Shown here one piece after another: positions 44,775 through 58,261 of a stretch of 64,000 nt of DNA. The stretch is from Tolypothrix bouteillei VB521301 (GTDB lineage Bacteria > Cyanobacteriota > Cyanobacteriia > Cyanobacteriales > Nostocaceae). Numbering within the stretch: the first letter of the stretch is position 1; the number at the start of each line of letters is the position of its first letter. The notes beneath the pieces are model-generated. The model was not told where the DNA came from and searched no databases. It saw only the letters and a list, made by a program, of their open reading frames with translations. Made by a program: the position numbers and the translations under genes. Location: NCBI RefSeq assembly GCF_000760695.4, contig NZ_JHEG04000001.1:1830717-1894716 (forward strand). The letters are read 5' to 3'.

Positions 44775-46214
44775 TTACTTAGATGCAGGGGTAATAGAAG
44801 CACCATTTTTTAGATTAAGTAAACCCGCAACAATGATTTTTTCTCCTGGCTCCAATCCTTCAATTACTTGATAACTATTACCTTGGAGATCGCCTAACTT
44901 AACGAGTTTTTGTCTGGCTATCAATTGGGTTTTTCCTTGTTGGTTTTGTTCTTGCTGTTGAGCTACATAAACAAACGTTTGTCCTGCTACGCGAGAAATT
45001 GCTTCAGTAGGAATGAGAACTCCGGGTCGTTGTTCCCAAATAACTCTTGCTTGCACAAAAGAATCAGCCCGCAATTGACCTTTAGCATTATCAAAGAGTG
45101 CTTTAATTAAAACAGATTGCGTGTCATTGGCTGTTTGAGGAGAGATAAAAAATACCTTACTGGTTCCAATATTTTGACCTTGCGCGTCGATCAGCTGTAC
45201 TGGTGTACCTACACGCACTCTCGAAGCCTGCTGTAATGGAATAGAAATATTTACCTCTAAAGGTTGATTTTGGGTAATGGTTGTCAGTTGAGTGGAAGTA
45301 GTGACTATATCTCCTACTTTGACTGGAATATTACCAACCGTACCAGCAAAAGGTGCTGTGACTCGATAGTTCTGGAGTTGAGCTTGCGATTGCTGAGCAT
45401 TAGCCTGTGCTTGCTGTACTGCTTTTTCTGATTGAGCCACAACAGCCCGTTGGGCTTCAATTTTCTTGTTAATAGCAGCAAGGCTGGATCGGGCTGCTTG
45501 GAATTGATTCAAGTATTGGTCTCTTGTTTCCCGCGAGACTGCTCCTTGAGTTGCAAGGTTAGAGTATCTTTGGTACTGTTCTTGGCTTAATCTCAATTGA
45601 GATTGATTGGAGAGCCTTTCGGCTTCAAGAGAACTCAGTGTCGCCCTAGCGCTTGTGACTTCTGCTTGAGATGCAGCGACAGCAGCCGTTGCACCACTGA
45701 GGGCTGCTTGTTGTTCGTCAGGATTGATTTGAACAATAGCCGTTCCTGTTTGTACCTCATTTCCTGGTTTGACAAAAATTTGGGACACTCGACCTTGGGT
45801 TTCTGGTTGAAGTGTGACGGATCGACGTGACTCTAAGTTTGCAACAAATTCTGCGCTGTCTCTAATTGTTGCTGTCTGAACTGTAGATATTCTTACAGGT
45901 ACTGCTTGCGATTGGCTTTGACCTGGTGGTGATTGTTTTTGAGCATTGTTATTTTGCCACCAACGCCAACCAAAGCCTCCACCAATCAGCAATGCGATCG
46001 CTCCTAGAATTAACCACCAATTCCGCTTCTTTGGTGATGGGGGTTTTCTGTCAGTGTCGGGGAAAGTATCATCTAGATCGGCTTCTTCAACCGTGTTGGT
46101 CTGTTGGCTAATCTCTTCCTGTGTTTGTGGAATGACTACCACGCTAAAGCGGTTATCTTTACTGTCTGGTGTTCTCGTGTGCTTTGTATCCTCAAAAGGT
46201 TCAAAATGTTTCAT
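44775..46214 (-). CDS. RND efflux periplasmic adaptor (membrane-fusion protein)
   Basis: The 479-residue AcrA/MexA-type subunit has a 60-residue polar cytoplasmic N-terminus, one membrane anchor (about 66-86; WWLILGAIALLIGGGFGW) instead of a lipoprotein signal, a lipoyl half-motif (GRVSQIFVKPGNEVQTG), a Gln/Ala-rich coiled-coil hairpin (about 165-280), the second lipoyl half (VTAPFAGTVGNIPVKVGD) and a beta-barrel domain ending GEKIIVAGLLNLKNGA. It is the first gene of a two-gene operon with the permease at 41515-44700. No transcription-factor gene is adjacent. Confidence 0.94.
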   Translation of the reverse strand: MKHFEPFEDTKHTRTPDSKDNRFSVVVIPQTQEEISQQTNTVEEADLDDTFPDTDRKPPSPKKRNWWLILGAIALLIGGGFGWRWWQNNNAQKQSPPGQSQSQAVPVRISTVQTATIRDSAEFVANLESRRSVTLQPETQGRVSQIFVKPGNEVQTGTAIVQINPDEQQAALSGATAAVAASQAEVTSARATLSSLEAERLSNQSQLRLSQEQYQRYSNLATQGAVSRETRDQYLNQFQAARSSLAAINKKIEAQRAVVAQSEKAVQQAQANAQQSQAQLQNYRVTAPFAGTVGNIPVKVGDIVTTSTQLTTITQNQPLEVNISIPLQQASRVRVGTPVQLIDAQGQNIGTSKVFFISPQTANDTQSVLIKALFDNAKGQLRADSFVQARVIWEQRPGVLIPTEAISRVAGQTFVYVAQQQEQNQQGKTQLIARQKLVKLGDLQGNSYQVIEGLEPGEKIIVAGLLNLKNGASITPASK

Positions 46215-47094
46215 ATGCGTAGTATCCTGATTTAAATAACTTCCTGTAGACTGACAACAATTTCAACCTTAAGTAAGAGTTCGGACCAATATTTAATTGT
46301 TAATTTATTTGTTCTTCCTCACACTAATTGAATAAATGAATAAGTATATTTATTAGCTAATTTTTGTCATAAATGGATAATACCCTCCTTATACCAGAAG
46401 CTCTTTCGGATTTATTTAAGTTTCTTCATTAATAGTTATTAAAATATTTTTACCTCTGTCTTGTAACTGCTACTAGAGATATATAATTGGTTTTCCATGC
46501 TCCTCCAACTCTCTACAAAGACATACTTAACATTTCTCCAATCACAATCATTTTGTGCTAAACTCTGGTAAAGAATCGAGATACTTAACAAAGAAAATAA
46601 ATTTTGTGACCCTCTTTGGTAAGCTATCTCAAAGAATATCTGAAATACTCCATTTAAGACTTAGTGATGTTCGCGATCGCATCTGTACAAGTAAAATCCG
46701 CTTATACACTTCGTTTATATAGTAGTGAATTTTCTTCGTTAAAAACTTTTTTAAGGGTGTTTTCTCACTACGACTGTAAAAAAATTGATGCAACGAAAGC
46801 ACTCACTATTCATGAGGTTTTGTAAAAATAAAAACCAATCTTAGTAACTTAAGATAAAATTCTATTAAGAAAGCCCGCTAAGCGGGCTACTATAAATGAA
46901 GATCGATTGTCAAGTATCAGCTCGACAACTAAAAAGTACCAGATAAACCTGAGGATTTTCTGAGGTTTTTCCCTCAAGCCATACTACGGTGTACGCACAA
47001 ATCAATCGTGTACACCGTAGCTTTAGTAAGGGGGGACTACAGGAAGTACAAACATTTCAAATTTTCACGAGTGGTTTAGGACTGCTGTAAAAAC
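46215..47094. other. 880-bp spacer with palindromes
   Basis: No convincing gene. A 52-codon frame (46667-46825) lacks a ribosome binding site and homology. Two palindromes stand out: AGCCCGC-TAA-GCGGGCT (46872-46888), which could be a terminator-like hairpin, and the CTACGGTGTAC/GTACACCGTAG element (46984-47020). The left part presumably contains the RND operon promoter. Confidence 0.55.
46984..47020. repeat. Perfect 11-bp inverted repeat resembling the MITE ends
   Basis: CTACGGTGTAC (46984-46994) and GTACACCGTAG (47010-47020) are perfect inverted repeats with a 15-bp centre. The GGTGTAC/GTACACC core matches the terminal repeats of the MITE-like elements, so this may be a deletion derivative or a related short element. 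Confidence 0.5.
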
Positions 47095-47529
47095 CTATTT
47101 CTTTTCAGCGCAACCTTCTAAAACTTTAGTACCTAAAATCAGCGTCGCTGAATAGGGGTAATCTTTATCAGACATACCATCACTGCATTTATCGACTTTT
47201 TTAAGAATGAGAGTATTGTTACCTTTACCTTTTAACTGATATACCCTGACCAAATCGTCAGGACGTCCTGCTGCTTTTAAGGGTGCTACGTAAGGAAATG
47301 TTTGTTTTTTGACTTCTGGTGAAGAGTAGACAATTCCACTTTTGCTAACGCTGACATTCCAAAATGGTTCTGTACCGACAACATTAAACCTCTCAGCCAC
47401 CGCATTTTGGGAAATGTAATGATGATTGTTTTTTATGGATAGCGTACTTTGATTTGCAACACTGCGAGCGCTAGCTAAGAAAGGGCTGGTTAATCCCAAG
47501 AAAAGAACACCAGATATTAAAATTTTCAT
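47095..47529 (-). CDS. COG3650-like secreted protein
   Basis: The 144-residue protein has a signal peptide (KILISGVLFLGLTSPFLASA). The mature domain has a pattern I associate with COG3650-type proteins: FNVVGTEPFWNVSV, then two cysteines in KCSDGMSD and LEGCAEK that could form a disulfide, and DYPYSATL. The family is widespread, exported and of unknown function. It stands alone, flanked by an 880-bp repeat-bearing spacer and a divergent KOW-domain gene. Confidence 0.75.
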   Translation of the reverse strand: MKILISGVLFLGLTSPFLASARSVANQSTLSIKNNHHYISQNAVAERFNVVGTEPFWNVSVSKSGIVYSSPEVKKQTFPYVAPLKAAGRPDDLVRVYQLKGKGNNTLILKKVDKCSDGMSDKDYPYSATLILGTKVLEGCAEKK

Positions 47530-47670
47530 TGATTATACTTGAAGAAGTCTGACTTGTATAATGGCTCAGACGTATGCTATTGCTAACAGTTCCGTATTTT
47601 GACTTTGAGTAGGTGTTTGGGAATGAGTTTTCTTACAACTCATTTAAGATTAATATAATCGTAACATTAT

Positions 47671-47970
47671 ATGAACAGTTTATTACAAATGAATCATATT
47701 CAAATAGGTAGTGTAGGGACAGTTATCAGTGGTCCGTTTAAAGATTTTCAAGCAACTGTTCTTAGATGGGAGGAGGATAAGGTTGTTGTTGAAATTGAGG
47801 TATTTGGTCGCAAGGTAGAAGTTGATTTAGAGCGAAAGCAGTTGGCAGTAATTTATGAAGCTGCTGCTGTCAAGTTACTTGAAGCTGCATATACCGCACT
47901 GAATCGAGATGCTTTGGCGGCGATCGCGAGAGTGCATGACACTCATAGGTCACTTGAGACCATACACTGA
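47671..47970 (+). CDS. Stand-alone KOW (NusG C-terminal-like) domain protein
   Basis: The 99-residue protein has a KOW/NGN-CTD-like segment (about residues 13-60): VGTVISGPFKDFQATVLRWEE followed by VVVEIEVFGRKVEVDLERKQL. Compare NusG, where GPF-x-DF and VFGR-x-T-x-V/LE are typical. There is no NGN domain. The C-terminal 35 residues are a predicted helix (AAAVKLLEAAYTALNRDALAA). It could bind ribosomes or RNA as NusG/RfaH KOW domains do; function is inferred only. Met7 (47689) is an alternative start. Confidence 0.7.
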   Translation: MNSLLQMNHIQIGSVGTVISGPFKDFQATVLRWEEDKVVVEIEVFGRKVEVDLERKQLAVIYEAAAVKLLEAAYTALNRDALAAIARVHDTHRSLETIH

Positions 47971-48010
47971 ATTTGCAGCTACTTAACTTTGAATGTAGGA
48001 GAAGTATATA

Positions 48011-48850
48011 TCACATCAAATTTTGATTTTTTGTCTTTACCCTTTGATACAACTCCTCCATAACTGTAATAAAAGAGTTATCCTTATGCCAGAAAGGTGG
48101 GAAATCTCCTTGTTTTTTAATTAAGATTGCCGATACACCTCCCGAAGTTGGAACATCAATTGTTTGGGGTAATCGCTTTGTCCCCAACCAAAACTCTCTA
48201 GCACTTGGCTGCGTGACAACTGATTTCTTTTGGAGTTTTGTATAGAATGAAGTTGAAGCTTCAACAGGAATTTCTTCAATGTTGAGTTCTTGAGATAGGG
48301 CTTTACCTAAAGGTGTTTGTGCCAATTGGCTTTGAAGTTCTATCTTTGATAACCCTCGCAATTCAAATAAGAGAAATGGATTGCGATCGAGTTGAGAAGC
48401 AACTAGATAGTAAACTCCAGCAATATGTTTGCAGGGATTGGCATAGTCCGGACAAGAACATCTTGTTTTAAAATCTTGTCTGCTGTGAGGTAATAAATGC
48501 AATCCAAACTCAGAGAAAGTATCTTCTATGTTTTCAGGAACTTCGTTTATCAAAAGGCGGGAAACAAGACTTGCTTTGGATGACAGCTTGTGAATTGCAT
48601 CTTTCCAACGAGTTTTTGCAATAGGTGTAAGTTCAATAGAAATATTGTAAGTTGGTTCTTTATAGACACCAAAGTAGGGATTGACCGATCCTCTTACTTG
48701 AGCAGTTATGTGATTTTTGTCAATATCAAAACTTAAAACTTTACCTCCACTTGCATAAGCACGTCCTCGTTGAAGCCTGCGTTCATCTGTAAAAGATTCC
48801 AATGCTTTAATAAAGCGATCGCCCCACCAGGTTCGAGCAAATTTAGTCAT
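48011..48850 (-). CDS. SWIM zinc-finger protein
   Basis: The 279-residue protein has a SWIM zinc finger C-x-C-x6-C-x-H (CSCPDYANPCKH, followed by IAGVYYL), preceded by a conserved N-terminal block (WWGDRFIKALESF, RLQRGRAYASGGKVLSFD). SWIM domains bind DNA or proteins and are often fused to, or encoded next to, SNF2 helicases, as here. The start is set at ATG 48850, which comes four bases after the helicase TGA (TGATATCATG) and has GGAG eight bases upstream, so translation is coupled. A longer frame from 48871 overlaps the helicase. Confidence 0.88.
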   Translation of the reverse strand: MTKFARTWWGDRFIKALESFTDERRLQRGRAYASGGKVLSFDIDKNHITAQVRGSVNPYFGVYKEPTYNISIELTPIAKTRWKDAIHKLSSKASLVSRLLINEVPENIEDTFSEFGLHLLPHSRQDFKTRCSCPDYANPCKHIAGVYYLVASQLDRNPFLLFELRGLSKIELQSQLAQTPLGKALSQELNIEEIPVEASTSFYTKLQKKSVVTQPSAREFWLGTKRLPQTIDVPTSGGVSAILIKKQGDFPPFWHKDNSFITVMEELYQRVKTKNQNLM

Positions 48851-48854
48851 GATA

Positions 48855-51800
48855 TCACTCCAAAACTGCACTTTTATTCAAGGCAATAAGTTGCTTAAAT
48901 GCTTCGTTATCCAATTCTGTGAGCCAGGACTCATCTGAACCAATAACGCTAGTAGAAAGTTTTTTCTTATCGTCAATCATTTGGTCAATTTTCTCTTCCA
49001 AAGTCCCAATCGCCACAAACTTATGGACAAAAACATTTTTACTTTGACCAATACGAAAAGCCCGGTCAGTTGCTTGGTCTTCAACGGCTGGATTCCACCA
49101 GCGGTCAAAGTGGAAAACGTGGTTTGCTTTGGTGAGAGTGATACCAACACCACCTGCTTTTAAGGAAAGTACAAAAGCAGATGGTTCTGTGTCTGGGTCT
49201 TGAAACTCACTAATCATATTTTCTCTCTTCTGTCGGCTAGTACCGCCATGTAAGTAGTACGTATTGCAGTGCAGAGAGTGTTTTATATATTTTTCTATGG
49301 CTTCACAAACTTCGGTAAACTGACTAAAAATAAGTAAACTTTCTCCTGCTGAAACTGCTTCTTCTACCATTTCTGCCAATCGACTGAATTTGTGCGATCG
49401 CTCGAGAGAATACTCACTACTATCCTGTAAAAATTGTGCCGGATGGTTGCAAATCTGCTTCAATTTCATTAGAGTTGAGAGAATTAAACCTTTACGTTGA
49501 ATTCCCTCTGCTTCTTGCAGTTTTTCCTCAACATCTCGAATTACAACTTCGTAAAGTGAAGCCTGTTCTTTTGTCAAATTAGTATATAGTTTCTGTTCTA
49601 CTTTATCAGGTAAATCGTTAATAATAGAACGATCCGTCTTCACCCGACGCAGAATTAAAGGTTCGACTAGCTTTTTAAGAGTTGTTGATTTTATCTTATC
49701 ATTATTCTTCTGAATTGGAATCTCAAAAGATTTCCGAAACTGTGCTTCTTTGCCCAAGTAGCCAGGATTGAGAAAGTTAAAAATTGACCACAAATCCAAC
49801 AAACGATTTTCTACAGGAGTCCCCGTTAAAGCAAGACGGTGTTTTGCCGATAGTTTCAAAATAGCTTTTGTTTGAGCGGCTTTAGGGTTTTTAATGTTTT
49901 GTGCTTCATCCAACACAATCCTTTGCCACTGCACGCTACCTAAAAGCTTCTCATCTTTACGAGCCAGAGTAAAGGAAGTAATCACGACATCGTGTTCTTG
50001 GCTTGCTGCTTTAAAGTCAGCAGAGTTCTGAAAGCGACTGTTACCGTGATGCACCATCGTTTTGAGATGAGGTGCAAACTTAGCAATTTCCTTTTGCCAG
50101 TTTCCTACAACAGAAGTAGGGGCGATAATAAGGGTGGAAGAGGGGGAAAGGGAAAAATTTCCTTCCTCTTTCTCTTTCTGGCTTTCCCTTTCTTCCCTCT
50201 CCTGTACAACTCTGGCAATAACTTGCAAGGACTTACCCAAACCCATGTCGTCCGCCAGACAGCCGTTAAGCCCCAAACGTTCCAAGTAACTCAGCCAGGA
50301 TACACCGCGTTTTTGGTACTCTCGTAAATTACCCCGTAAGGAAATAGGATCTGAAGTTGGTTCAAGCTGGCTTTTCTCTTGCAACTTAGCCATCATTTCT
50401 GATAAAAATTCATCGTGTTCAACTTCCCACTCCTCCCCAACTTCCGCACTGCGTTGCAAGAGTTCGAGCACCGACATTTCTTGTTGTTCTTTTGTTTGGG
50501 ACTCCCAGAATTCAAGTAACTCCTGCATTTTATCCCGGTCTAGTTCCATCCACTGACCACGAAAATGCACTAAAGGTGCTTTGGTGTTAATGAGTTGTTC
50601 CCATTCTTGTAAAGTTACGACTTGGTCACCAATAGCAAGCTCGTACTGATACTGTACGAGTGAATCAAGACTAAAATAGCCTTTTGTTTTGCTTTTCCCT
50701 GCGCTTTGCTTGGAAGCAGAAGCTTTGAGCCGAATCTTAGCACGACGGCGACCTGTAGGAGTATACCAGGCTGGTACAATGACTTTAAAACCAGTATCTT
50801 CTAACACCCAAGCAGTTTCCTTAAGAAAATCAAAGGCTTCTCCTAGTGTCAGATATAACCCTGTGGGATGTTCCGTTTCCATTCCCTGCCACAACTGAGG
50901 ATACATCCGTGCAGCATATCCCAGATTGAGTAATAAATTTGTCTCAAAGTCTTGACCGAATTGCTTGTGTACTCCTGCTTTAGTTTTTTGACTCATTGTC
51001 CAATAGTCAAAAAGTGGCAGTTTTAGAGAGGGGTCTTGTTTGCTAGCAACTAGAAACTGAACAAACCAATTGTCTAAAGCATCGGGGGAAGGAGAATGCA
51101 ATTGAAAGCAGAGATTAAAGGGGGAGTCAGTTTGAGTGCGAGTAATTTTGTTTTTCCACGCCAGCCATTGCTTGTATTCTTCTAGAGAAGTCCTGGTAGA
51201 TATTGGGTTGTGTCCGTTGCGATAAAGACACTCTTGGAGTAAAGAATTAGCTATTTGTTTGTCAAAGGAGGCTGGAAAAGACGTATGAGTCACTATGTTA
51301 TCAAGTAAGGACTCAGAAAAGTGACGTAACAGTGTTTCGTTATCAAAAAACACAACTGGATCGTTGGCTGTCATTGAACCCGCCACACAAATAAGTGGCA
51401 TATACTCAATATATTTTTTGATATTTGATTCGTACTGTTCGGAGATAATTTCCCAAGTGGGGTAAATTTCAAAGGATGGGGTACTTGTTTTTGCTTGTTT
51501 TCCTTTTTTTATGGAAACCGTAGATTCTATCTCTCGATATTTCAGTGCTGGAATATACTGGTCTTTAAGAATAACTTGCTTAAAAGCTTGCGTGTAGTGA
51601 TACCAAAATAAAAGGTCTGAACCCAGTTGAATTTCTTGAGAATTGTAGAGTGCTAAAAAGTGAATATCATTAATAAGTTTAATAGCGTTAATGGCTTTAG
51701 GAGTTTGAAAATTCTCGGTTTTGGTCGTTGTAACAAGTTCGTAGCAATTGATTTGCCAGTATTTAAAACCATCATATTCAGCAGGAATTTCTTCCTCCAA

Positions 51801-52082
51801 ATACTTAGTTAATTCTGGTGACGGTAGGGGGCGATCGCTACTCGTTGGGAAGGCAAAGTATTTAGGAGATATGCGTTCTCGCAGTTTAATTGCTGGTTCT
51901 TGGATGCCTAACGCTTGTATTAAAAATGTTTCTAATTCATCTCCAGTTAGATGTCCGGGGTGGAGTATCTGTTTGGTGTGGTATTCTTTGGAAAATGGGG
52001 TTTCTACCCACAAGTAAAAGGAACCTGACTGAAAAAAGCCAGTCTGTGCGTGAGGTATCCATGTACCGTGAATAACTTTCAT
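48855..52082 (-). CDS. SNF2-family DEAD/DEAH box helicase
   Basis: The 1075-residue protein has a 560-residue N-terminal region, then a SNF2 ATPase: Walker [10 protein letters not shown], DEAQ box ([10 protein letters not shown]), [10 protein letters not shown] and, in the C-terminal lobe, [24 protein letters not shown] in two segments. It belongs to the bacterial SNF2 group related to HepA/RapA-like remodelers that translocate on DNA or displace proteins from it. ATG 52082 ([11 protein letters not shown]) is preferred to the upstream Met at 52109, because GAGG lies about nine bases before it and [10 protein letters not shown] is the conserved N-terminus. It forms an operon with the SWIM gene. 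Confidence 0.92.
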   Translation of the reverse strand: [1075 protein letters not shown]

Positions 52083-52207
52083 AACTGAAGCCTCTAGCGT
52101 GCCATTCATTCTGGAGGACTACAGTTACTTTACCATCTAGTTAAGAACATGGGGATTATATTTAGTATTGATACACGCTTGTGAGTTAAAACTCTTCACG
52201 ATCTGAT

Positions 52208-53068
52208 TCACTCTTGTTTCCACGGTTGTTGTCTCCAACCTAATTTCTGTCTTGCTAAGGAAGTATCTACGTGAGGCATATAAATTTCTACAAGCTCTAT
52301 AGTTTCTCGTACCAATGCTTCAAGTTCATTGATAGCTACGGGGGCTTCATGATGAAACAAGCTTTCGAGACGAGATGCAAGGTTTTCAGGGACAATCTTC
52401 ATTTGCTCAATAAATCTGCTCATTCGCTTGAATTGAAAAGTTGAATAATACAAGCGGTTCAACCCAGACAATACACCAAGTAAATTTTGGGCTGACTCAA
52501 CAAGGATTTGGTAGTACCAGAGCGTTGTGTCCCGTCTAGCAAGCTTGGGCTGCATTCCCCAAATAGGGAAGAATTTGAGGTAATGCTCGACCATTTTCTG
52601 TGCTAGCCCATCCGGATAATTCGCAACTTTGGCTTTCCACTTCTCAATCAGCGTTTCGCCGTACAATGGAATTCCAATTAGCGTTCCAGTCATTGTTTTT
52701 ATCATTGGAGATTGAAGATCGAATCCCTCCAAGATAGTTGAAATTTCCTTTTCCCATTGTGCGATCGTTGCATGAGCAAACTGACATTCAACTCCATTCA
52801 CAAAGTAAGTCTGACCGATCGCACCCTCTAGCCGATCTCCCAAAATACCCAATGTCTCCGACCCATGATTTCGCTGACGCGCTTCCTCTAATTCCTCATC
52901 AGAGGGTAATTCGTCATAATAAATGCACATCTCGCAATCAGAGTATTCATCGCACAGCCCTTCTGCAACTGACCCTGTAAGCATGACGGCTTTCGTTTTT
53001 GGGTTAGCGATGTAAGTTTCGGCATTGCGCTTTGCTAATTTTAGCAAATACTGAATTTTCTCAGTCAT
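52208..53068 (-). CDS. Nucleotidyltransferase-fold protein
   Basis: The 286-residue protein has a pol-beta nucleotidyltransferase motif: LTGSVAEGLCDEYSDCEMC gives the G-S...D-x-E pattern that binds two metals. The helical C-terminal half (LEGFDLQSP..., YYQILVESAQNLLGVLSG) suggests a substrate-binding domain like those of aminoglycoside or lincosamide nucleotidylyltransferases, but the substrate is unknown. It lies about 95 bp downstream of the CHAT-pseudokinase-globin gene on the same strand, with no terminator in between, so co-transcription is possible. ATG 53068 is preferred to the GTG at 53092; neither has a clear ribosome binding site. Confidence 0.75.
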   Translation of the reverse strand: MTEKIQYLLKLAKRNAETYIANPKTKAVMLTGSVAEGLCDEYSDCEMCIYYDELPSDEELEEARQRNHGSETLGILGDRLEGAIGQTYFVNGVECQFAHATIAQWEKEISTILEGFDLQSPMIKTMTGTLIGIPLYGETLIEKWKAKVANYPDGLAQKMVEHYLKFFPIWGMQPKLARRDTTLWYYQILVESAQNLLGVLSGLNRLYYSTFQFKRMSRFIEQMKIVPENLASRLESLFHHEAPVAINELEALVRETIELVEIYMPHVDTSLARQKLGWRQQPWKQE

Positions 53069-53163
53069 GAATTTTTGTGATTTAGTTGACACTCACACGG
53101 TTCCAAGCCATGTGATTATGTATTATAGGGAATATAAATCCCACATTGCTAATATCGAAGCTC

Positions 53164-55170
53164 TTACTTTTTTCCTTGATATTTTTGCATATATTCAATT
53201 CCTGGACGTAAAACTTCTTCCCAAGCCTCTGTCACTAGTTTTGTATAACTTGAATTTTCGTTTTTCTCAGACTCCTTTGTACACTCAGGATCTGTGTTTT
53301 TTACTGTTTCTATTAAATTAGAGACAAAAGTGCTATAGAACTCATGTGGAATCTTACTGTGAGAATTTGCTATCCGACTGAGAATATTAGGTTCTTCTTG
53401 CTCGTTCTGCTCAGGCAAATTTTGTTTCTGTTCATAATAAGCGAATAACAATATAATAGCTTCTTCAAGTTGCTGATACTGTATATGCCACCTTTTATCT
53501 TGATTATTTAACTCTCGCTCGTTAAAACCTATAAATTGCGCCTTAACATCCTCTTTTTCTATAAATTTATCATAAAAAATTTGAATAAAGCTCTTATCAG
53601 AGTCTTTTTTGTTTAGACACCTTATGTAACTTTCCTTGACCGTATTTAAATAAAAGTTTACATTCCGAATTATTTTTAACGCATCCTCAAGTGTGGCATA
53701 ACGTTTTTTTGGTTCATGCTCTGTCATTCTATAAATAGTGTTCTGAAGAATTTCCGGGCAATCGTTACGACAACTGCGAATCTCTTCCAAAGAACGCAAA
53801 TCTCTAAATGCACTATCCCCTTCTTGTTCCAATTTGTGATAATCTTCCAGCACACGTGGTGTCTTGCCTGTGAGAATCTCATACGCTAAAATTCCAAGCA
53901 GGTATTGAGCAGATTGATCGAACGTTGGATGATTTGGGTTATGATGACTAAAGCGTTCGGGAAGTTGGTATGCTGACGCTTCTAAAGAGTCTGATTCATT
54001 TTGTTTATCAGACATCTTTTTAAGTTCTTGTATTATTTCGTTCTGATGCAAGCTTTCAAACAAGTTAAAAGGTGAGATAAAAGGTTCATTTTTTTCATTC
54101 AGTATAATATTTGATGGTTTGATATTAGGAGTAGTATTGGGAAAAATAGAATTTGAACTCGAAATACTAAGAAGTGCATCCCCAATGGCTACAATAATGT
54201 TAAGTGCGTCGTTAAACCGTAGCTTATCCCGAGTATTAATTTTTTCTCGAAGGGTTTTACCTTCAACATACTGCATCACATAGTAGTAAGGAATTTTATT
54301 TAAATTAACATCATAAATAGTAATAAAATTTGACCTATCTGAAATTTTCACTGCTTCTTGAATACCTTTGTCAAACGGCTGCTGTAAATTTTCTTCGTAA
54401 AATACTTTAATAGCTACATCACGTTTTAAAATATTGTCATTAGCTTTAAAAACTATCGCCAGACTACCTTCTTTAGGTGGTGATAAATCTAATGTGTATC
54501 TTGCTTTCGGTAATATAGAAACTAGTTTTTTCTTTTTTTCTGCAAGTTTTATTTCCAACACTGGAATCTTCTCTTGAAAATTAGATTCTGCTTTAGCTTG
54601 AATGCGAGCTTTGCCTAATTCAAAAGCTTTTGCGATCTCACTATATTGTTGGATAGCATTTTGATTATTTATATGACTGTTAGCTATATATTCATAAAAT
54701 CCTTCAGCAAATTTAATTGCAGATTCATCTAGAATCTCCTGGTTCATACCAATGACATAATTAATATGTTGGCACATTAAATGTGCAGTTTTAGCTGAAT
54801 AGCAAGCATTAAGTAATACACATTGAACATGACTAGTATGTTGCTTAAAAAAAGCAGCCAAACCTTCTGGTTTTACAGGTTCTGCTGTCCCATTATCACT
54901 CTCGAATATTAAGCAGCCATTCTCCATACCGTGTCCGCAAAAATGGACTATAGAAGGCTTTTCTGTTTGAATCGCTTCTGACATAGTTTTCAAACTTACA
55001 TTACTTATTGTTGTTATTTCAAATACATTATTTCCTTTTTCTTTAATAGTGTTTTCAAGTTGGTTGAATTTAGCATAAGCAGTCGTAATTTTATTGATTT
55101 CAGTCTTTAAATCTAGGTAAGAATGGTTATTAGGAAGCGATGCTAAAATTAAAATTTTCTTCTTTGCCAT
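53164..55170 (-). CDS. CHAT (caspase-like) protease - pseudokinase - globin fusion protein
   Basis: The 668-residue protein has three regions. About 1-195 is a CHAT/caspase-like domain with catalytic His80 (HFCGHGMENG) and Cys123 (LLNACYSAK). About 222-505 is a protein kinase fold with Lys255 (VAIKVF), YYYVMQYVEGKTL and GILAYEILTGKTP; its HRD is TPN (Asp to Asn349), its DFG is P367-F-N, and the Gly loop is weak, so it is a pseudokinase. About 508-665 resembles a globin: FYDKF (helix B), a long E-helix region, IANSHSKIPHEFY with His604 at the proximal F8 position (compare IANKHA in flavohaemoglobin), and LVTEAWEEVLRPGIEYM (G/H). No signal peptide. Function inferred: a haem/gas- or redox-gated protease, possibly cell-death related. 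Base composition is AT-rich. Confidence 0.8.
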   Translation of the reverse strand: MAKKKILILASLPNNHSYLDLKTEINKITTAYAKFNQLENTIKEKGNNVFEITTISNVSLKTMSEAIQTEKPSIVHFCGHGMENGCLIFESDNGTAEPVKPEGLAAFFKQHTSHVQCVLLNACYSAKTAHLMCQHINYVIGMNQEILDESAIKFAEGFYEYIANSHINNQNAIQQYSEIAKAFELGKARIQAKAESNFQEKIPVLEIKLAEKKKKLVSILPKARYTLDLSPPKEGSLAIVFKANDNILKRDVAIKVFYEENLQQPFDKGIQEAVKISDRSNFITIYDVNLNKIPYYYVMQYVEGKTLREKINTRDKLRFNDALNIIVAIGDALLSISSSNSIFPNTTPNIKPSNIILNEKNEPFISPFNLFESLHQNEIIQELKKMSDKQNESDSLEASAYQLPERFSHHNPNHPTFDQSAQYLLGILAYEILTGKTPRVLEDYHKLEQEGDSAFRDLRSLEEIRSCRNDCPEILQNTIYRMTEHEPKKRYATLEDALKIIRNVNFYLNTVKESYIRCLNKKDSDKSFIQIFYDKFIEKEDVKAQFIGFNERELNNQDKRWHIQYQQLEEAIILLFAYYEQKQNLPEQNEQEEPNILSRIANSHSKIPHEFYSTFVSNLIETVKNTDPECTKESEKNENSSYTKLVTEAWEEVLRPGIEYMQKYQGKK

Positions 55171-55334
55171 ACTTTATACTCCTTTTCTTAATTATCACTA
55201 AAAATGATAATATTTTGACACAGATAAAGTTACTTTGTTATTTATAAAAACTACAACTACAAAGATGGTAATTCCGAAAAAATAGTTTTTGACTTCTGTA
55301 AGAACTTGCTTTGGAAAAAGTAGAAATATCTATA

Positions 55335-55416
55335 TCCGCTTCTGCGATCGCACAGGCTGGTTGTACCACCTTAACCATGACTCAATATCCGAAGCTACAG
55401 TACTGAACAAATATAC
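55335..55416 (+). pseudogene. Duplicate fragment of the lipoprotein gene 5' region
   Basis: CTTCTGCGATCGCACAGGCT, then GGTTGTACCACCTTAACCATGACTCAATA in pieces, matches 55839-55895 (within the lipoprotein signal-peptide region) with a few substitutions. The copy has no start codon of its own and meets a stop soon after (TACTGA), so it is a truncated paralogous fragment. Confidence 0.6.
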
Positions 55417-55550
55417 CTAGCGAATTTAAAAAGTGTATGAAAATTTACATTTTATATCAAGGTATTAATACTGTATTTTTGCTCTTTAATAAACATCTAT
55501 TTTTAGAGATAACACTAAAAATTAGAATTTCTAGCCTGCCTACGCAGGCT

Positions 55551-55577
55551 ATGTTTGTATAGCCAAGGCAGCGCGTT
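55551..55577. repeat. Inverted copy of the 2959 repeat
   Basis: GTTTGTATAGCCAAGGCAGCGCG-TTGC is the reverse complement of the repeat at 2959-2985 with one substitution. Together they show a dispersed family in both orientations. Confidence 0.65.
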
Positions 55578-55798
55578 GCGGTGAGCAGCGCCGTGCCCCC
55601 GTTGTAGCGCCCTGGGTTCCCCCCGTTGTAGCGCCTGCCGTCCACTCTTCTAGAGTGAGGGCAATTAATGTGCAACTTCACATAGAATTGGTATGAGATG
55701 CTTGCTCTAATTCCTCTTCACAGAGCTGGTAGAGGGATACTCTCCTCCGGATCTCGAAACAAGCAAACGTATAGCTTAGCGATGAATTCCCAATCCTC

Positions 55799-56311
55799 AT
55801 GAAACAACCAACATCTCTGCTTTTAACATTACCGATCGCTTCTGCGATCGCACTGGCTGGTTGCACCACCTTAACCACGACTCAATACGAAGCAACAGCA
55901 CTCACTCAGTATACTTGGCAAGTTAAATATGCTAACGACCTAACGAATGAAACATCATCGCGTTTTGAAACTTTTGGTACTACGTCTTTACTCAATCGTA
56001 ATGGTATAAAGCCAGAAGGAGCAGTCACAGGTCCTGATGACAAAGGACTGTGGTGGGCTGCTTTACCGCCAAGACCTTCAGTGGATGAAGTCGAACAAAG
56101 AAAGCAGGGACAGGAAGCCAGTCAGCCTGAATTGTTGAAATCTGTTGACTACCAATTGACGTATACGTTGAGTGGCGAACAAAGGACATTACCTGCTAAC
56201 TATCAAGTGTATAGAGAAGTTGTCAAAGCGTATCCATCACGCACGCCCTTAGAGTTAACTTTAGGGGTGAATGATAATTCTGTTGAAAAAGCAGAACCAT
56301 CTGGTGAGTAG
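55799..56311 (+). CDS. Hypothetical lipoprotein
   Basis: The 170-residue protein has a lipoprotein signal (SLLLTLPIASAIALAGC) with lipobox LAGC at Cys22. The mature part is polar, with WQVKYANDLTNETSS, GLWWAALPPRPSVDEVEQRK and VDYQLTYTLSGEQRTLPANY. No domain recognised. The HIP1 octamer GCGATCGC is embedded in its signal-peptide codons. A partial duplicate of its 5' region lies 460 bp upstream. Membrane-anchored location is inferred from the lipobox. Confidence 0.7.
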   Translation: MKQPTSLLLTLPIASAIALAGCTTLTTTQYEATALTQYTWQVKYANDLTNETSSRFETFGTTSLLNRNGIKPEGAVTGPDDKGLWWAALPPRPSVDEVEQRKQGQEASQPELLKSVDYQLTYTLSGEQRTLPANYQVYREVVKAYPSRTPLELTLGVNDNSVEKAEPSGE

Positions 56312-56636
56312 TTCAACCTGAAAAAACATAAAATGTTTGTGTGGCACTTTAGCAGATGCATTGCAACTACACACCTAAAAGTATTTTAGGTTGAATTTGT
56401 TGGAGCTACTTCACTGAGTTATTATCTTAATATTTATGCTATTTTTTTAAAAGTACTTAACTTATTATCAGCCGACAATTCTACAAACTCTTGAAGTTCT
56501 TTTTGAATTGCGATCGCGCACCTGTAAAATTCACAAGATGGTGTGACACTTCAATCAGTGGACTTATAAACACATGAGATTGTGTTGTTTGTGCTACCTT
56601 TTAGCCAAGAAAGACTAGGATAAGCGGGGGTGGCTT
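56312..56636. other. Spacer, nothing recognised
   Basis: 325 bp of AT-rich DNA with one HIP1 site (GCGATCGCGC near 56510). I see no gene, repeat array or strong hairpin; it presumably contains the promoter of the following gene. Confidence 0.4.
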
Positions 56637-57878
56637 ATGAGACGTAAGTTACTAAGTATACTTATTAGTATAATAATTCTATTATCAATACAAGTCCCAT
56701 TACCTGCTTTTGCTCAAACTAATTTTCACAATTTAACTTCGAGTCAAGCTCAAAAGCTCACTAGCATTCAATGCAGTCTGACAACAATTGATGACCTACA
56801 ATCGCGAGGTATCTTAAGTGTTGATTTAGCTAACTCGCAAAGAAAATATTACTTAACAAATGCAGAAACTCTGCTTGGTTCACCAGTAGCGCCAGAGGAA
56901 TTAACGGCTTTGTTAAAGAATTATAACGAGCCGCAGGATGTTCAAAGATCGGGAATCAAGCAGCACATTGCTGGCTTTTTCACTTTTGTCAATATTATAT
57001 GGTTCACCTCTAGTATCTTACTGACGATCGCAATTGGTTGGCTTTTTGCACTTTATTTGCTACCCATTCTCTTTGCCATCCCTCCTATAGTCTATGAAAT
57101 TGTCACTTATGGTGTCTGTTTGGCGTCGATTGTTGGAGGTCAATGGTTTACTCCTGAAATCGCTGGATTTATTGCTCTACCCGGTTGTATGGGCTTAATT
57201 GGAGCATTGACATTGAGTGAATATTTACACCAACAGGCACTTCAACAGTTTTATGAAGAAAGCAAAATCAATAGGTTTTCTCTGTATGCTTTTCTTCTTT
57301 TCTGTATTTGGGCAGCCGTAGCAATTGCTTACAACAGCATTGCGATCGCATTTTTAGCAGTTATTGCTCTAGAGACATTTTTGGGTTTCTCAGTAGCAGT
57401 CATGCCATTACAGTATTTTATTGGTTTTAGAGAAAGAAAAGTAATTCCTCAGACAACCGCCGCTTCTTTCTTGCTGTTGGTGTTTTATGTCGGGCTGAAA
57501 ATAAGTCAAACAGACATTGCCTACCTTAACATTTTCTCCTCTGGGGCACTGTTTATGGGTGTATTTGTATATTTCACAGGTTTGTTAGTGCTTGCATCAA
57601 AGTGGCACGGTCACAAAAACCTATGGCATTATATAGGACTGCAAGTATTAACCATTGTTTCTGGTATTGGAGCGCTCTTTATTGGTTCAGTTTGGCATAT
57701 TACCCAACTGCAAGGTATTGGAGGAACATTCTTTTTCCTGTATCTCTTAGAGAAATATTGGGAACTCCCTTGGAAAAAGCAAAGCTGGGCTTGGGCAACT
57801 TTGGGGTTGGCAGTTTTGCTCTATCTCTCATCTTTAATTGTGAGAATGTACCCCCAGTATTTTCTTTTTTCGGTTTAA
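56637..57878 (+). CDS. Unknown multi-pass membrane protein with signal peptide
   Basis: The 413-residue protein starts with a signal sequence (LLSILISIIILLSIQVPLPAFAQ), followed by a soluble segment (30-110; LTSIQCSLTTIDDLQSRGI) and about nine or ten hydrophobic helices (115-405). No family recognised. The soluble segment could face the periplasm or thylakoid lumen. Located just upstream of the exopolysaccharide operon but 380 bp away, so a role there is speculative. Confidence 0.65.
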   Translation: MRRKLLSILISIIILLSIQVPLPAFAQTNFHNLTSSQAQKLTSIQCSLTTIDDLQSRGILSVDLANSQRKYYLTNAETLLGSPVAPEELTALLKNYNEPQDVQRSGIKQHIAGFFTFVNIIWFTSSILLTIAIGWLFALYLLPILFAIPPIVYEIVTYGVCLASIVGGQWFTPEIAGFIALPGCMGLIGALTLSEYLHQQALQQFYEESKINRFSLYAFLLFCIWAAVAIAYNSIAIAFLAVIALETFLGFSVAVMPLQYFIGFRERKVIPQTTAASFLLLVFYVGLKISQTDIAYLNIFSSGALFMGVFVYFTGLLVLASKWHGHKNLWHYIGLQVLTIVSGIGALFIGSVWHITQLQGIGGTFFFLYLLEKYWELPWKKQSWAWATLGLAVLLYLSSLIVRMYPQYFLFSV

Positions 57879-58261
57879 CGAAGTTGTGTCAACGCGATTG
57901 TAGAGAGACAAAAGCGAGTTATACATAGGAGTGAAAAATAATGTAGAGACGCTTGAGACAACTCCTCTTAACTGGGGTTTTATGCAATGCAGACTGCAAT
58001 TTTTGAAAATGTCTTAAATCCTCTCGTTTCTCATGGATAGCTAGGTGGATAATCTGATGCTCCCCAGAGGACACTATCTGTAAAAATGCGATCGTAACCA
58101 CCTGATAGTATTTTTACTGTGGTTTAAGTAAGAAACTGGTACTCAGAGTTGCAGAAAATGTCTCGGGTTACTCAAGCTTGAGCCTAAAGTACTTTCAGGC
58201 GATCGCGCAATACCCTATAGAAGCTGCAATCTGTGCTAGTTTCCCATAGAGAGGATTGTTA
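57879..58261. other. Spacer before the exopolysaccharide operon
   Basis: This 383-bp gap contains a GTAGAGACG-type repeat scrap (57942), HIP1-like sites and AGAGAGGA just before the GumC start. No gene recognised; the operon promoter is likely here. Confidence 0.45.

Follow-up and report, generated by a model that had tools for sequence, protein, structure and literature searches.

A cyanobacterial CHAT protein with a pseudokinase and a C-terminal globin, and its relatives with other N-terminal parts

Globins joined to an output domain are known from the classical globin-coupled sensors (HemAT and the globin-GGDEF proteins), in which a sensor globin at the N-terminus is followed by a C-terminal transmitter. 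For many families of CHAT and TIR effectors in prokaryotes, no trigger is known to have been established. Excerpts of two papers on conflict systems (PMC7159879 and PMC8195603) describe variable effectors placed on constant regulatory parts, with EAD1 as a coupling adaptor. The same excerpts propose the tetrapyrrole-binding GUN4 domain as a cyanobacterial sensor and describe, for actinobacterial systems, kinases whose catalytic residues are disrupted. Within the excerpts of PMC7159879, EAD1 is proposed to be a homotypic coupling domain, and the fusion partners named for GUN4 are kinases, caspases, trypsin, and TIR. Finally, androglobin, in the portions of its literature that we drew on, carries a protease domain and a globin on one chain.

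Here we describe a protein of Tolypothrix bouteillei whose architecture is, with near certainty, CHAT-pseudokinase-globin. Its gene lies in a 64-kb stretch of DNA, which we call the window. The gene and its domains are:

53164..55170 (-): whole gene, CHAT - pseudokinase - globin, 668 aa; an intact, stop-free open reading frame
54601..55161 (-): CHAT protease domain, about residues 4-190 (Pfam PF12770; outer limits set by aligning it with L058, an EAD1-CHAT protein described below)
53695..54471 (-): pseudokinase domain, residues 234-492 (Pfam PF00069, 50.9 bits against a cut-off of 31.7)
53167..53658 (-): globin domain, residues 505-668 (profile against 1tu9, E 4.5e-12; hhalign against globins, with decoys)

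The key residues lie where the first-pass annotation of this DNA had put them (FCGHG at 77-81, LNACYS at 120-125, NIKPSN at 349-354, and IANSHSK at 600-606). It was also right to call the gene AT-rich, as the open reading frame has a GC content of 0.328 (GC3 of 0.251) versus 0.406 for the window. It knew of no other case of the three-part architecture, which is not unique: homologues that keep CHAT, pseudokinase, and globin were sought and found, and the arrangement occurs at 4 loci in 3 genomes.

The CHAT domain matches PF12770 over residues 41-167 with 31.5 bits (cut-off 24), and a solved CHAT domain-containing protein, 8tl0, matches the same region (E 4.4e-11). The window protein and 8tl0 have the CHAT region and its dyad in common, and the match is confined to the CHAT part. 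Together, the Pfam score and this alignment uphold the original reading of a CHAT domain with an intact dyad:

54931..54933 (-): His80 of the CHAT dyad; GHG in register with GHG of 8tl0
54802..54804 (-): Cys123 of the CHAT dyad; LNAC in register with LNAC of 8tl0

By reading, the His/Cys dyad is retained in 4 of the 4 CHAT-bearing members of the module that we describe below. The window CHAT is predicted to be an active protease that acts on a cellular target. The genome as a whole (G000) has 14 places with CHAT-like sequence resembling the window protein, among 23 matches; these include the window gene and a paralogue.

The second domain is a kinase by homology, and it lacks the HRD and DFG aspartates, as had been proposed from the window alone; this is true of 7 relatives as well. 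Its informative positions are:

54406..54408 (-): Lys255 (VAIK), retained; 8 of 8 members
54124..54126 (-): Asn349, replacing the HRD aspartate; none of the 8 members has Asp (7 have Asn, and G654 has His)
54064..54072 (-): Pro367-Phe368-Asn369 at the expected DFG site; DFG absent in 8 of 8 members, by eye

In the window kinase, the DFG region is occupied by SPFN (FISPF at 364-368). The absence of DFG was judged by eye; MAFFT leaves this stretch out of register with the DFG of true kinases. The alignment comprised 8 members (G731, which has the C-lobe alone on its contig, was excluded) and 3 other kinases from the same genome, and these 3 have both HRD and DFG. From these residues, the domain is predicted to be catalytically dead.

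The globin identity of the C-terminus comes from its relatives. By themselves, the protein's last 164 residues have no globin match in Pfam or NCBIfam and no match at all in the PDB. With a 4-member profile, PA3967 (1tu9) was the top PDB match, aligned in two pieces with a whole-sequence E of 3.4e-4, and a 9-member profile matched residues 9 to 132 of 1tu9 with E 4.5e-12; its further PDB matches were the haemoglobin 1hlm (E 0.028) and two unrelated chains (E 0.044 and 0.064). The likeness to PA3967 extends from residue 9 to 132 of 134; the two share their start (SYxRC), their end (AW-V-G), and the HS of the proximal site. Using hhalign, the 9-member profile scored 136.5 against four PA3967-type globins (decoy maximum 19.6). 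Its score against E. coli Hmp together with seven cyanobacterial globins of the classical type was 49.2 (decoy maximum 19.7), and each comparison had 100 column-shuffled decoys. Because the profile matches 1tu9 and the classical globins far above the decoys, we conclude that the C-terminus is a globin. The first-pass annotation had said so from the window sequence, which is insufficient on its own; it is the relatives' profile that bears the claim out. Pfam's Globin family (PF00042) matches 2 of the 9 members, below its cut-off (20.8 and 18.5 bits versus 22; best E 6.2e-5). Pfam matches of the C-terminus to R.HinP1I and CNOT11 (E 0.02-0.07) were each seen in 1 of the 9 members, and we ascribe them to chance. 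An excerpt of PMC1457004 counts 1tu9 among the single-domain globins that are very similar to the globin domains of flavohaemoglobins.

We also compared the C-terminal region to 72,556 plasmid records (tblastn, limit 0.1) and obtained one match (E 0.01), to a protein annotated as Globin, with 29.3% identity across one third of the query. This plasmid globin itself matches 1tu9 (E 7.9e-7). Across 195 genomes of the order, its sole match was the C-terminus of the paralogue (E 1.8e-6); the window copy fell short of E 0.01. Two plasmid-borne globins of the PA3967 type (L021:1737-2183 and L023:1492-1923), with Gln at the proximal site, are set between genes for DUF3131 proteins and one for a response regulator. 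Another cyanobacterial lineage (G293) encodes a standalone PA3967-type globin of 136 aa (L099:1495-1905), which is a possible source of the fused domain.

The positions that line the haem pocket were compared to those of Hmp:

53572..53574 (-): Tyr533, at the position of Hmp Tyr29; all 9 members have Tyr
53533..53535 (-): Phe546, at the position of Hmp Phe43; all 9 members have Phe
53479..53481 (-): Gln564, at the position of Hmp Gln53; of the 9 members, 5 have Gln and 4 have His
53359..53361 (-): His604, at the position of Hmp His85, the proximal ligand; 8 of the 9 members have His
53221..53223 (-): Trp650, at the position of Hmp Trp120; all 9 members have Trp

In addition, Leu568 aligns with Hmp Leu57, in a column with 6 Leu, 2 Val, and 1 Ile across the 9 members, so that the window copy and Hmp are identical at 6 of the 6 pocket positions compared. 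(In Hmp, we take Tyr29 to be B10, Phe43 CD1, Gln53 E7, Leu57 E11, and His85 F8, with Trp120 presumably in helix H.) The PA3967-type rows L021 and L023 (proximal Gln) and the classical globins L040 and L045 are excluded from this alignment. The distal pair is Tyr + Gln, as in Hmp, in 5 of the 9 members and Tyr + His in the remaining 4. The first-pass annotation had made its reading depend in advance on the conservation of His604, and the outcome favours it: the sole exception among the members is a broken gene from Symploca, which has Tyr. It had also assigned AWEEVLRPGIEYM to helices G/H; with Trp650 aligned to Hmp Trp120, the helix-H part stands and the placement is corrected from G/H to H. 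These pocket residues make it likely that the globin domain binds haem.

The pseudokinase-globin module occurs at 9 loci in 8 cyanobacterial genomes. Its N-terminal part is CHAT at 4 loci and TIR and EAD1 at 1 each, with 1 unrecognised, 1 cut off, and 1 broken:

CHAT front end: the window gene and its paralogue (G000), G650, and Xenococcus sp. MO_188.B8 (G268)
TIR front end: G654 (Pfam TIR_2, E 2.9e-14)
EAD1 front end: G744, of the same genus as the window genome (Pfam, E 1.1e-25)
No recognised front domain: G730
Front cut by the contig end: G731
Broken gene, split and without CHAT: Symploca sp. SIO3C6 (G253)

Pfam recognises CHAT in G650 (E 2.3e-8) and in the paralogue (E 1.0e-12); the CHAT of Xenococcus rests on alignment, and this member has an early stop. 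An EAD adaptor, which the relative in G744 has, was not found by Pfam in the window protein.

These loci come from searches of 291 and of 388 genomes of the order, 217 of the family, and, twice, 386 of the phylum; the draws overlap and the queries differ. The module is present in 6 of the 217 family genomes. The family search matched 36 genomes, of which 30 were not counted as having the module: we read the frames at 14 loci (5 were the module and 9 were another globin family), and for the remaining weak matches we went by frame length and score. With the 9-member profile, the order search identified 4 of 388 genomes and the phylum search 2 of 386, namely the window's own genome and one with a standalone globin. 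A scan of genome contigs with short patterns matched Symploca and Xenococcus alone, and with patterns this short absence says little. Two queries confirmed no relatives on viral contigs. A match in G135 proved to be a repeat-rich, unrelated protein.

Proteins of the second cyanobacterial globin family (L032, L033, L035, L036, L037, L039, and L045) carry classical globins, one or two each, together with a likely transmembrane stretch and with pentapeptide-like repeats; the latter two features were assigned by eye, with repeats at 7 of the 9 loci read. The window's own genome has two globin matches within one 615-aa frame (G000:C2:195208-196089).

In a tree of the members (its midpoint root is for drawing only), Xenococcus, with CHAT, groups with Symploca. 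G730 and G744 form a pair with support of 100/100, and the TIR member, G654, falls in an unresolved group with G731 and three CHAT members (the window copy, its paralogue, and G650). The branch of the window copy is long (1.2, versus 0.51 for the paralogue). By these sequence comparisons, the front ends have evidently been changed on a common pseudokinase-globin rear. That different N-terminal parts sit on the same base points to an O2-, NO-, or haem-sensing switch for effectors. We consider the swapping of CHAT, TIR, and EAD1, which the first-pass annotation missed, to be the strongest argument for a regulatory role.

The CHAT domain may also be linked to the module in trans. The genome of G744 has 24 EAD1 matches. 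Besides the module protein, we read 12 EAD1 frames and scanned 9, and 4 of these 9 have CHAT (L058, L061, L081, and L083); the 9 were picked after reading, so this fraction is not a rate. The one EAD1 protein that was scanned from the window's own genome (L059) has CHAT too. The CHAT domain of L058 is 44% identical to that of the window protein across 184 columns. Given these EAD1-CHAT proteins and this similarity, CHAT may be recruited via EAD1 in one species and fused in another: the EAD1 adaptor of the G744 module protein could recruit EAD1-CHAT proteins that are encoded elsewhere in its genome. In L081 and L083, CHAT is followed by a GUN4 domain (E 1.5e-33 and E 2.2e-40). CHAT effectors are in this way tied to two kinds of tetrapyrrole binder, GUN4 and the globin.

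Gene neighbourhoods point to conflict at the G730 locus only. The 6 kb to each side of the G730 copy contain genes encoding nSTAND1-WD40, HetE-N, bAvd, and FGE-domain proteins (one FGE by eye), and these parts are named among conflict systems in the portions of PMC7159879 and PMC8195603 consulted, which also link FGE/FGS domains to diversity-generating elements. This island (L053:3-16652) contains, along with the pseudokinase-globin gene, a likely reverse transcriptase adjoining bAvd, which was read by eye from its open reading frame. Upstream of the G730 copy a 140-aa protein is encoded; a link between it and the HetE-N protein was considered, and the two did not align. The stretches read at the other loci contain no such island, and the neighbours of the window gene, the paralogue, and the members in G650, G654, Xenococcus, and Symploca look ordinary. 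The genes nearest to the window gene encode, on one side, a nucleotidyltransferase-like protein, an SNF2-type helicase, and a 286-aa protein and, on the other, a 170-aa lipoprotein-like protein (labelled by eye). None of these genes adjoins the paralogue, by reading. The nucleotidyltransferase (52208-53092), which had been offered as a clue to an accessory locus, is not a conserved partner: of 60 family genomes, 14 had a match to it (the window's own genome among them, some matches partial), and around 7 of these matches blastn found that gene alone out of window positions 46001-58000 (within 1.5-kb flanks or up to the contig end). G650 has both this gene and the CHAT gene, which is flanked there by others.

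Much as in the gas- or redox-gated protease put forward by the first-pass annotation, we propose that the C-terminal globin, which is PA3967-like and presumably of the three-over-three family, would bind haem via His604, and that O2 or NO, or the redox or occupancy state of the haem, would alter its shape. The dead kinase, which is fused directly before the globin, would relay this change as an allosteric adaptor, and the relay would release or cluster the N-terminal CHAT protease. Once freed, CHAT would cut a cellular target in a cell-death, stress, or anti-invader response. In the relatives, the same pseudokinase-globin base would act on TIR in place of CHAT, or through an EAD1 adaptor that recruits EAD1-CHAT proteins. 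That a haem-globin sensor, relayed by the pseudokinase, gates interchangeable effectors seems to us about as probable as its opposite. More broadly, and tentatively, since we think it slightly more apt to be wrong than right, these proteins may form a new class of globin-coupled effectors, in which large-genome cyanobacteria attach cell-death effectors (CHAT, TIR, or any EAD1 partner) to a constant sensor base of haem globin and pseudokinase; cell death or immunity would then depend on O2, NO, or haem status.

The GUN4 domains of L081 and L083 suggest a related reading, in which the globin would sense not gas but haem supply (apo versus holo), by analogy with GUN4 as a sensor of chlorophyll and haem precursors in effectors of cyanobacteria. 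This would fit with the proposal, in the excerpted text of PMC7159879, that GUN4 provides tetrapyrrole-dependent allosteric control of many enzymes, but the module also keeps its distal positions (Tyr + Gln in 5 and Tyr + His in 4 of the 9 members), which goes beyond what the docking of haem needs. We consider a pure sensor of tetrapyrrole status to be unlikely.

The globin fold might instead be a haem-less scaffold and serve as a protein-protein module, as it does in the RsbR-type stressosome globins. The proximal ligand can be lost in this family and its kin, as seen from the Tyr in Symploca and from the two standalone globins L021 and L023, which are enterobacterial and have Gln at this site. 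Furthermore, only 8 residues separate His604 from the next conserved aromatic in the window copy, which is the family's shortest stretch (10-19 in the others). This short stretch weakens the case for haem binding by the window copy in particular, which, given its long branch as well, may have drifted from that function. For the family, however, proximal His in 8 of 9 members, and Tyr B10, Phe CD1, and Gln or His E7 each in 9 of 9, argue against a scaffold without haem, which we regard as distinctly unlikely.

A third reading accepts the sensor and changes the output: on O2 or NO, CHAT would trim a developmental or metabolic regulator, in the manner of HetF, which acts in heterocyst formation. 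An excerpt of PMC9284123 lists hetF of Mastigocladus among the heterocyst genes and annotates it as CHAT domain-containing, so CHAT need not mean cell death. But TIR and EAD1, which are parts typical of conflict effectors, are found on the same base in relatives, and the rare and patchy occurrence of the module (6 of 217 family genomes) is unlike that of a developmental gene; we give such a regulatory protease little credence. Still, HetF as a CHAT protein, together with the ordinary neighbourhoods, lowers our confidence in both the effector switch and the new class. Lastly, the window gene could be a fast-evolving, decaying or functionless duplicate of the other genomic copy, given its low GC (0.328) and GC3 (0.251), its long branch, its shortened stretch after His604, and the two further members that are broken (Symploca, split and without CHAT, and Xenococcus, with an early stop), but its frame is open for 668 codons with the CHAT dyad and every haem-pocket position intact, and we find this very improbable.

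If the effector switch is right, gas or haem sensing would be coupled directly to the release of a bacterial effector, in photosynthetic organisms that undergo strong light-dark swings in oxygen, and there would be a second tetrapyrrole-sensing design alongside GUN4. The globin is a concrete and testable trigger: uptake of haem and binding of ligand are visible by spectrum, and a single residue, His604, can be probed.

How, then, do these proteins compare to described systems? PA3967 is a standalone protein of 134 aa, whereas the window globin is the C-terminus of an effector and has longer CD and EF regions. In contrast to the classical globin-coupled sensors, the globin here is C-terminal and of the PA3967 type, no sensor globin is among the 4 PDB matches of the profile, and a pseudokinase connects it to its outputs, which are CHAT, TIR, or EAD1. 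The conflict proteins differ in their constant part, which here is pseudokinase-globin; no globin was seen in them, as "globin" appears once in PMC7159879 and "hemoglobin" once in PMC8195603, each time in the title of the reference on the caspase-hemoglobinase fold. Searches of an open-access library brought up no paper seen to describe a CHAT, TIR, or EAD1 protein that carries a globin; in the excerpt of PMC9284123, globin and CHAT domain are mentioned in unrelated places. The nearest parallels are the GUN4 fusions and androglobin. Androglobin, as portrayed in those portions of its literature, has a calpain rather than a CHAT domain and a circularly permuted globin, is metazoan, and is described with no mention of a pseudokinase, whereas the globin of the module aligns to 1tu9 and Hmp in linear order.
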